Positions 5,684 to 14,823 of a stretch of 14,823 nucleotides of DNA are shown here, piece by piece; the first letter of the stretch is position 1; each line of letters starts with the position of its first letter. Below the pieces are notes generated by a model. It had not been told where the DNA came from, searched no databases, and saw only the letters and a program-made list of their open reading frames with translations. The stretch is from Saccharofermentans sp. (lineage in GTDB: Bacteria > Bacillota_A > Clostridia > Saccharofermentanales > Saccharofermentanaceae): assembly GCA_024695565.1 (NCBI GenBank), contig JAILHX010000065.1, positions 1 to 14,823 on the forward strand. Direction: 5' to 3'. A program made the position numbers and the translations under genes.

Positions 5684-5697
5684 GATTGACAGATTTG

Positions 5698-5936
5698 GTT
5701 TCCCCGGAGTCCTTATTTTCGGGCACTTGGGAAAACTTGCCCCAAATTTCATAAAAACGGCAATTCGGGGGCACGGATAACAGGCATTGTTTGCCCCGGA
5801 CTTTGTGAAATCAGTAATTTGGGGGCAATTATTATGAATCCGTTTGCCCCGAACTTAGGAATAATAGAATTCCGGGGCAAAATCAGCAGGAGTATTTTTA
5901 CCCCAAACACTCGATTTCTGACATTATGGGGCAATT
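5698..5936. repeat. Array of five inverted-repeat units (AATTYGGGGCAA half-sites), about 54-bp period
   Basis: Five consecutive units each have a C-run arm (TTTGCCCC type) and a G-run arm (GGGGCAAA type) separated by 23-24 nt. C runs start at 5702, 5740, 5794, 5847 and 5901. G runs end at 5731, 5771, 5825, 5877 and 5931. The half-site consensus by eye is RAATTYGGGGCAA, in alternating orientation. The middle ~11 nt of each unit and the linkers are not conserved. Linkers are 21-23 nt, except the first, which is 8 nt. The first unit (CCCC/GGGA) and the left arm of the fifth (TACCCC) are degenerate. As RNA each unit could form a hairpin; as DNA it resembles an array of binding sites. No coding potential is supported. 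The array lies between rlmH and the his operator/promoter. Confidence 0.8.
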
Positions 5937-5950
5937 GATCAGAAAACGTT

Positions 5951-5966
5951 CTTTATTCGACTAAAG
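5951..5966. promoter_or_regulatory. Upstream his operator copy (O1)
   Basis: CTTTATTCGACTAAAG differs by one base from the perfect palindrome at 6004-6019. It ends 7 bp before the -35 box. The two sites have centres 53 bp apart, close to five helical turns, which would suit binding on one face or a loop across the promoter. TrpR-family HisR/YerC proteins are known to regulate his genes in Firmicutes; assignment to that family is inference. Confidence 0.7.
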
Positions 5967-5973
5967 AAAATGC

Positions 5974-6002
5974 TTGACATGGAGTGATTGCACAATTATA
6001 AT
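5974..6002 (+). promoter_or_regulatory. Consensus sigma-A promoter of the his operon
   Basis: TTGACA (5974-5979) and TATAAT (5997-6002) match the consensus at all twelve positions, with the optimal 17-bp spacer. Expected transcription start is near 6009, inside the operator palindrome at 6004-6019, giving a leader of about 100 nt before hisZ. So strong a core promoter overlapped by a palindrome is the usual design of a repressed biosynthetic operon. Confidence 0.9.
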
Positions 6003-6003
6003 C

Positions 6004-6019
6004 CTTTAGTCGACTAAAG
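6004..6019. promoter_or_regulatory. Downstream his operator (O2) covering the transcription start
   Basis: CTTTAGTCGACTAAAG is a perfect 16-bp palindrome starting one base after the -10 box and covering the expected start site. A bound protein would block initiation. A one-mismatch copy lies upstream of the -35 box at 5951-5966. A shorter CTTTATATATAAAG palindrome at 6052-6065 shares the CTTTA/TAAAG ends but may be chance or RNA structure. Confidence 0.8.
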
Positions 6020-10906: not shown

Positions 10907-11788
10907 ATGCTTATTAAGGATACTGATTTTATCGATCAGCCGATGCTCTCAAAGGGCAAGGTAAGAAACATCTACGATCTTGGTGATTCACTCCTTCTGG
11001 TCGTTACCGACAGGATCTCAGCTTTTGACGTTATTTTCGACGAGCTGATACCTGACAAGGGAAGAGTTCTCTCTTCGATCTCTGAATTCTGGTTTGATTT
11101 CACAAAGGACATCATTCCGAATCACGTCATCACAACTGATGTTTCAAAGTATCCTATGGGATTCGATAAGTACAAGGAAGAGCTCCAGGGCAGATCAATG
11201 CTCGTTAAGAAGGCAGAGATGCTTCCTGCAGAGTGCATCGTAAGAGGCTACCTCGAAGGTTCCGCTCTTAAGGAATACAACAAGTCCGGTACAGTCGGCG
11301 GCATCAAGATGCCTGAGGGAATGCTCCAGGGCGACAAGCTTCCTGAGCCTTTGTTCACACCTTCCACCAAGGCTGATGAAGGACACGACATCAACATCAC
11401 ATACGAGCAGTTAGTCGATCTAATCGGCGAGGCTGATGCTTCCGCATTAAGAGATGCTTCTCTTGCTCTTTATAAGAAGGTATCAGAGTTCGCTCTTACA
11501 AAGGGCCTGATCCTTGCAGATACTAAGTTCGAGTTCGGTAAGATCGACGGCGTTCTTACGGTATGCGACGAGATGTTCACACCTGACTCTTCAAGATTCT
11601 GGGATGCAGCAGAGTATGAACCCGGACATGCGCAGAAGAGCTTTGATAAGCAGTTCTTAAGAGAATGGCTCGAGACTTTAGACTGGGATAAGACATATCC
11701 TGCTCCGACACTTCCCGAGGACATCATCGAGAAGACGGCAGCCAAATACCGTGAGTGCTACTTACGTATAACAGGAAAGGAAATCTGA
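10907..11788 (+). CDS. purC: Phosphoribosylaminoimidazole-succinocarboxamide synthase (SAICAR synthetase)
   Basis: ATP-dependent enzyme joining CAIR and aspartate to form SAICAR in purine synthesis. The 293-residue protein has KGKVRNIYDLGD (16-27), TDRISAFDV (34-42), the first signature LPAECIVRGYLEGSA (106-120), GLILADTKFEFG (200-211) and the second signature TPDSSRFWDAAEYEPG (225-240). Length fits the longer, Ade1-like form rather than the ~240-residue Bacillus form. GGAGG at 10894-10898 precedes ATG 10907. It sits between hisB and hisH, 18 bp after the former and 4 bp before the latter, so it must share the his transcript. It is a purine gene inside a histidine operon, presumably tied to AICAR made by HisH/HisF. 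No promoter of its own is evident. Confidence 0.96.
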   Translation: MLIKDTDFIDQPMLSKGKVRNIYDLGDSLLLVVTDRISAFDVIFDELIPDKGRVLSSISEFWFDFTKDIIPNHVITTDVSKYPMGFDKYKEELQGRSMLVKKAEMLPAECIVRGYLEGSALKEYNKSGTVGGIKMPEGMLQGDKLPEPLFTPSTKADEGHDINITYEQLVDLIGEADASALRDASLALYKKVSEFALTKGLILADTKFEFGKIDGVLTVCDEMFTPDSSRFWDAAEYEPGHAQKSFDKQFLREWLETLDWDKTYPAPTLPEDIIEKTAAKYRECYLRITGKEI

Positions 11789-14682: not shown

Positions 14683-14823
14683 ATGGCAAAGGCCGGAGCT
14701 CGCGATAAGCTTACTCTCGCATGCACAGAGTGCAAGCAGAGAAACTATCAGACATACAAGAACAAGAAGAACAATACAGAGAGATTAGAGCTCAAGAAGT
14801 ATTGCCCCTTCTGCCGTAAGCAC
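14683..14823 (+). CDS. rpmG: 50S ribosomal protein L33, Zn-ribbon type (partial, 3' end outside window)
   Basis: Small large-subunit protein near the ribosomal E site. The visible 47 residues show both CxxC zinc knuckles, CTEC (14-17) and CPFC (41-44), and the conserved [11 protein letters not shown] (21-31), so this is the Zn-binding (C+) form. GGAGGT at 14668-14673 supports ATG 14683. L33 is usually about 49-55 residues, so only a few residues and the stop are missing. In many Firmicutes secE and nusG follow rpmG; that cannot be seen here. Confidence 0.96.

Follow-up and report, generated by a model that had tools for sequence, protein, structure and literature searches.

Face-aligned repeat arrays and their PD-(D/E)XK-like partner genes in Saccharofermentans-type genomes

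Short intergenic inverted repeats that are dispersed through a genome and paired with a protein family of that genome are known from repetitive extragenic palindromic (REP) sequences, including bacterial interspersed mosaic elements (BIMEs) and REPINs, and their partners, the REP-associated tyrosine transposases (RAYTs); RAYTs are Y1 (HUH) transposases. In the target-recognition domains of Type I restriction HsdS, a variable DNA-reading part is combined with a conserved part and recombination changes specificity, while the operator arrays of autoregulatory DNA-binding proteins place phased sites over or beside the protein's own promoter. In the tandem interspaced guide RNA (TIGR) systems, arrays of 36-nt units with alternating edge and loop repeats and ~9-nt spacers lie beside a small, possibly nuclease-bearing Tas protein, the repeat being conserved within but not between loci (PMC12045711). 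The subject of this work is an array in a stretch of Saccharofermentans sp. DNA, the whole 14,823 nt of which is termed the window: five inverted arm pairs, or ten half-sites, spanning 5699–5934 of the intergenic region between the rlmH stop (5683) and the promoter of the his operon.

This array belongs to a family of arrays linked to genes for ~261-aa PD-(D/E)XK-like proteins, which we label DDK. Their arms are gene-specific, their pitch corresponds to five, six or seven helical turns and their half-sites behave independently of one another; at three loci the array and the N-terminal coding region diverge together, and many dispersed arrays have cognates in the same genome. We think it rather probable that a DDK-family protein with sequence-specific affinity for double-stranded DNA would recognise the ten half-sites of the window array, which is then an orphan, because no DDK gene with the same arms is present in the window. 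No description of such arrays was found in the open-access papers searched, judged mostly by titles and the openings of abstracts.

Linkage of the arrays to DDK genes

A search with HisZ kept 80 loci, of which L001–L024 (76–92% identity) come from Saccharofermentans-type rumen and gut genomes and constitute the 24 relatives considered here. The rlmH–hisZ slot of five of them (L001, L008, L011, L016 and L017) holds a reverse-strand DDK gene with a two-unit array upstream. The position of this gene corresponds to 5684–5698 in the window, between rlmH and the array, where the window has no DDK gene; when the whole window was searched by tblastn with 70 DDK proteins, the best E value was 0.025, for a 21-residue match. 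In L004 the slot contains a short element beside an apparent 3′ DDK remnant, seen by eye and not confirmed by tblastn. The other 18 relatives showed no array in the slot, by eye or with an exact-arm detector whose negatives are weak, as it missed the L001 and L017 elements that were found by eye and by model; in L007 and L009 a stretch of 2.2 kb contained no recognised rlmH. The slot arms are TTRTACTT in L001 and L017, TTGCCCC in L008 and L011, and TTGTCCCA in L016, and the four arms of one element change together from lineage to lineage. When the window array was scored against 58 DDK arm models, the top matches were the his-slot genes of genomes G008 (54.2) and G011 (45.3), a 98% identical pair with identical arms, and the next score was 38.1. 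The sequence-only reading had counted absence of the arms and spacing from the same locus in close relatives as evidence against it. Most relatives indeed show neither there, but chance does not account for the array: it goes with a DDK gene that is gained and lost in the slot and not with the his operon.

The same linkage is found at other loci. DDK matches occur in 24/24 Saccharofermentans-type genomes, with 3–14 per genome and 76 at E below 1e-30 among the matches listed. We examined 69 upstream regions, 67 belonging to strong matches and two to weak ones, with 68 of the 76 strong matches retrieved. An 8-mer present at least three times in both orientations was found in 57/69 of these regions and in 18/277 controls, at least three of the 57 owing their count to a shared TTGAGACT motif. 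A stricter 9-mer arm score exceeded 32, the 95th percentile of the controls, in 48/69 DDK upstreams and 14/304 controls; 13 of these 14 controls lie at array-bearing loci and the remaining one precedes hisZ of L018, where HisR-type palindromes are present. Among genes with a good motif, DDK paralogs of the same genome differ in their arms. A second bacterial family, that of G189, encodes DDK homologues at 1e-20 in 24/60 genomes, and there 11/26 upstreams scored above 32 compared with 2/49 controls, both in one locus, L322; four of the 30 loci (L302, L308, L313 and L325) were dropped from this set. Terminal inverted repeats around DDK were considered and rejected, as the top upstream 8-mer recurs in 0/69 downstream regions. 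A separate motif, GTCTCAA, is present in 49/69 DDK upstreams and 32/217 controls, often as GAGACYRGTCTCAA plus another copy, for example in L203 and L242.

Turning to the relationship between arms and protein, three syntenic loci of G008 and G011 were compared. Identity is 92, 94 and 81% in the aligned upstream flanks; the greater part of the DDK gene, together with the downstream sequence, aligns at 93, 86 and 93%. At two of the loci the array together with the first 58 and 69 codons fails to align; at the third the array is unaligned and the first four 30-residue segments are 43–70% identical, as against 90–100% in the next four. Two additional pairs, L259/L247 and L250/L247, align over 216–303 bp of the C-terminal part alone and are not syntenic. 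When overall identity is allowed for, residues 21–45 still predict how alike the arms are among the 106 gene pairs that share 55% identity or more (partial r 0.45; the maximum over segments was reached in 0/2000 label permutations), with a partial r of 0.22 for the overlapping segment 31–55 and lower values for other segments.

DDK upstreams of the EHCG class have neighbouring-unit spacings of 50–53 bp in 28/30 cases and arrays that end a median of 129 bp before the start codon; in the EH[L/F]G class the spacing is 72–74 bp in 41/47 cases and the median distance is 32.5 bp. Arrays of the second family have spacings of 51–54 or 63–65 bp. One of them, upstream of a DDK homologue at L300, consists of 31 arm sites, and each of its 27 same-strand spacings is exactly 53 bp. 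The median pitch lies within 1.5 bp of 52.5, 63 or 73.5 bp (five, six or seven helical turns) in 45/60 arrays, compared with a uniform expectation of 17.2 and a largest value of 31 in 20,000 draws; the test took spacings of 42–84 bp, and since arrays share ancestry these are not 60 independent trials. The sequence-only reading had the sites all facing one side of the DNA and proposed constraint on arms and helical geometry while the centres diverge, both of which the related arrays support. Comparison of arms of the same unit gave 1332/1768 matches in 46 arrays (shuffled mean 1351, standard deviation 8.8) and 595/845 in a separate set of 11 (shuffled mean 599, standard deviation 3.0). Because the match within units is no better than that between units, we take the arms to be independent double-strand half-sites and not hairpin stems. 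Most units of L270 retain one and the same left/right mismatch.

The window array and its surroundings

In the window, unit 1 (5699–5734) has the most divergent arm pair, with a different core in its sequence: TTTCCCC at 5699–5705 and GGGAAA at 5729–5734. Unit 2 (5737–5773) pairs TTGCCCC at 5737–5743 with GGGGCA at 5768–5773 and has an A-tract in its centre, and unit 3 (5790–5828) pairs TTTGCCCC at 5790–5797 with GGGGCAA at 5822–5828. Unit 4 (5843–5881) comprises TTTGCCCC at 5843–5850 and GGGGCAAA at 5874–5881, and unit 5 (5897–5934) comprises TTTACCCC at 5897–5904 and GGGGCAA at 5928–5934. A covariance model built from 17 elements of relatives, with the window excluded, recovers the array at E values of 1.7e-4 and 7.2e-4, in matches that cover units 2 and 3 (5735–5830) and units 4 and 5 (5842–5936), in keeping with the earlier suggestion of a repeat family. 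The left arms are spaced by about 37, then 54, 53 and 54 bp and the right arms by about 40, then 54, 52 and 54 bp, so that units 2–5 keep a whole-turn pitch of 52–54 bp and unit 1 deviates (37 and 40 bp). Of the ten GGGGCAA half-sites in five pairs that had been described from the letters, the five inverted pairs stand, while the exact heptamer is present in 6/10 half-sites and unit 1 has another core.

GGGGCAA occurs seven times in the whole window, the seventh copy at 14802, against 1.17 expected, a count reached in 0/200 shuffles. On both strands of the array segment the top exact 7-mer has six copies, which 0/2000 second-order Markov simulations reach, and a weaker degenerate test, which allowed TTTGCCCC up to two mismatches and took its Markov model from the very segment under test, had p = 0.03. 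The window array is confirmed as a real feature, beyond chance by two tests and weakly so by the third. Tandem Repeats Finder returned no row at the array position, and a simple tandem repeat was rejected; inverted arms and degenerate centres stand in place of the identical direct repeats and unrelated spacers of a CRISPR array. The array stretch folds more stably than shuffled sequence on either strand (z −3.15 and −3.08), as expected because the arms are inverted, and a weak terminator-like site lies on the minus strand of the region. Rfam searches yielded no family for the array, with one sub-threshold snoRNA match, and none for eight array-bearing loci.

The his operon has putative regulatory sites of its own. 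Its sigma-70-type promoter, TTGACA-17-TATAAT on the plus strand (5974–6002), agrees with the consensus at 12/12 positions and is flanked by two palindromes at 5952–5965 and 6005–6018, 53 bp apart and one on each side. Both were located by pattern match, lie outside the array and are the only TTTAN6TAAA sites between rlmH and hisZ in the window, none falling inside the array. They fit the published Firmicutes HisR consensus TTTAN6TAAA (PMC9413887), as do the palindromes of the relatives, which have two HisR-type sites 52–54 bp apart before hisZ in 24/24 cases, array present or absent. Because of these sites the array is unnecessary for explaining his control, and it is probably not a histidine regulator. 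Elsewhere in the window, a 5S rRNA gene is located at its start (23–139), and a gene at 10907–11788, which we take to be purC-like, lies within the his operon between hisB-like and hisH-like genes.

Dispersed arrays, the DDK protein and competing explanations

Arrays also occur away from DDK genes. The TTGCCCC pair pattern was found in 3/24 genomes (eight matches in G008, eight in G011 and one short unit in G018), the elements of G008 and G011 consisting of two 38–39-bp units at a 51-bp pitch. The TTRTACTT pair pattern was found in 6/18 genomes, with 21 matches in G001, 20 of which are 39-bp units forming ten elements at a 52-bp pitch; matches of about 50 nt in several genomes appear unrelated. 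The 17-element covariance model had matches in at least 14/24 genomes at E 0.1 (each genome yielded several hundred first-look candidates, of which 150 were scored) and in at least 12/39 genomes of a genus sample at E 0.01 (109 candidates scored), and many arm classes are represented at these loci. An open reading frame scan places all ten elements of G001, and a further one from G017, between genes. Two copies in G001 (L124 and L125) lie within a 240-bp block of 98.75% identity, which shows recent copying. Some G001 arrays, these two and others, form part of a 200–240-bp repeat that also contains a hairpin resembling a terminator and has GGTGTCTCAAA-like ends; it is perhaps a miniature mobile element.

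For 27/54 dispersed arrays the best-matching DDK arms came from the array's own genome, compared with a shuffled mean of 6.7 and a maximum of 16 in 10,000 shuffles, and in four further G011 arrays a nearly identical G008 gene was slightly ahead of the own gene. This set excludes arrays adjoining DDK genes (L174, L182, L185, L192, L194 and the his-slot elements). Because part of it came from the arm patterns of two DDK genes, the comparison was repeated with the 35 arrays found by the covariance model only, and an own-genome DDK was best in 14/35 (shuffled mean 3.1, maximum 12). Some arm classes, TTTCCCCC among them, are without a clear cognate DDK; L106 of G008 and L108 of G011 are multi-unit arrays with TTTCCCCC arms for which no clear cognate gene was found.

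DDK is not a general family, since similarity at the 1e-15 level turned up in only 2/198 other genomes of a phylum sample and in one of these was confined to the C-terminal part. Among the 120 listed of 1287 homologous proteins, those that are named, Butyrivibrio included, are called 'hypothetical protein'. An alignment of 63 sequences, which left out L200, L221, L222 and L245 as well as L215, L223 and L281, whose proteins fall short of 250 aa, shows E159, P188, D189 and H205 to be invariant and E204 to be present in at least 90%. Sequence searches of Pfam, NCBIfam and the PDB returned no significant family, and structure searches with the whole model gave no clear match. As to the Nop domain of TIGR-Tas proteins, similarity to TasH is confined to two helices, and TasH is not among the matches listed for the N-terminal part alone. 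We suggest that the protein would consist of an N-terminal helix, a three-stranded sheet and a long helix followed by the PD-(D/E)XK-like domain, with the tip of the sheet reading the half-sites and the face-aligned geometry allowing several molecules to bind cooperatively. An AP2-like reading of the sheet found no support. Gene-linked arrays could then autoregulate their own DDK gene, and the window array may be the remnant of a lost DDK gene or a spread copy.

Several observations weigh against this explanation of the arrays. The arm score of 21/69 DDK upstreams is not above the control cut-off, and some top upstream motifs (for example in L201, L208, L249 and L250) are shared motifs and not arms. 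The three syntenic pairs were picked for near-identical C-termini and unlike N-termini, and so show occurrence, not frequency; one recombination tract across adjacent DNA would give the same picture. At 45% identity or more, the partial r of residues 21–45 (0.17) ties with that of 111–145 (0.16; maximum p 0.05). Over all 1128 gene pairs it is 0.09, and arm likeness correlates no less with the C-terminus (rho 0.18) than with the N-terminus (0.14), both weak predictors; label permutation, moreover, leaves shared ancestry in place. The best match of 27/54 dispersed arrays lies outside their own genome, and the half-site searches and the covariance model were built from two arm classes. As for the protein, the (D/E)XK lysine is missing from its usual place, and the N-terminal part alone has no clear fold match, with generic coiled-coil matches only.

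Dispersed copies in many relatives, the near-identical block in G001 and arrays without a cognate gene would also be produced by REP-like repeats or miniature inverted-repeat transposable elements that spread as DNA and whose arms stay similar through copying and template switching, not through a binding protein. We regard this as unlikely, given that many DDK genes are preceded by arrays with gene-specific arms, that the whole-turn pitch is kept although the centres diverge, and that arm likeness follows DDK residues 21–45 among closer pairs. The Y1 transposase family PF01797 was found in 0/6 array-bearing genomes, in a search whose control was positive in 5/14 genomes; on this absence, and on the lack of within-unit covariation in related arrays, a REP/RAYT system was rejected. 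Tandem terminators, mRNA-stabilising stems or attenuators would agree with the folding of both strands, the weak minus-strand terminator-like site and the many dispersed arrays that stand at gene ends adjoining terminator-like hairpins. Such RNA hairpins, proposed by the sequence-only reading as the end of the upstream operon, nevertheless seem improbable: partner arms do not covary in two separate array sets, L270 retains its mismatch, Rfam has no match, and RNA stems do not require a pitch of five, six or seven turns.

The position of the array just upstream of the his promoter led the same reading to offer an array for an unidentified regulator of the his operon. This too we consider distinctly improbable in view of the HisR-type sites in all relatives, the 18/24 slots in which no array was seen and the like arrays at many unrelated loci. 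An insulator, or an element that organises the chromosome, would likewise be dispersed, intergenic and face-aligned if some host protein besides DDK bound it; this is given a similarly low probability, as arms vary between loci of one genome and follow DDK paralogs instead of a single host factor. More doubtful still is an RNA-guided system in the manner of TIGR-Tas, in which the array would encode guide RNAs for a PD-(D/E)XK effector. TIGR units of 36 nt with ~9-nt spacers differ from the 51–54, 63–65 or 73–74 bp seen here, structure matches of the DDK N-terminus alone are no more than generic coiled coils, and arm likeness follows protein sequence among closer pairs.

The partnership compared with known systems

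In conservative terms, the arrays and DDK genes represent a gene–repeat partnership. A bolder and quite tentative possibility is a self-addressing system, in which each of many nuclease-like proteins in a genome would have a face-aligned landing array to itself, distinct in sequence, with tip and array changing as a cassette so that specificities diversify much as those of restriction systems do. A hint of phage defence comes from the PDC-S68-like C-terminal domain, and in such a role arrays might hold, regulate or license the nuclease, with orphan arrays as further landing sites. If DDK proteins do bind the arrays, at least two bacterial families carry mutually distinct DNA-binding, nuclease-like proteins whose target can be read from the DNA before each gene. 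This would provide a natural table of protein tip sequences and bound sites from which a recognition code could be learned, and would let one test directly what makes a nuclease-like protein keep changing its address. The window array would then count as another system's orphan and no longer as a his regulator.

Set beside the known systems, the partnership departs from each. In contrast to REP/BIME or REPIN elements and their RAYTs, it joins a PD-(D/E)XK-like protein to gene-specific arrays that lie upstream, and the arms do not behave as hairpin stems. In comparison with HsdS, the putative sites precede the gene here and change with it. From TIGR-Tas systems the arrays differ in unit length, unit anatomy and nuclease type, and the structural match to DDK covers the two-helix part only. 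Autoregulatory operator arrays share the phased sites, but here there are many paralogs, each with its own sequence, together with dispersed gene-less copies. HisR operators share the window's intergenic region with the array and are separate sites of their own, present in every relative. Each of the known partnerships that were tested lacks a match in some defining feature.
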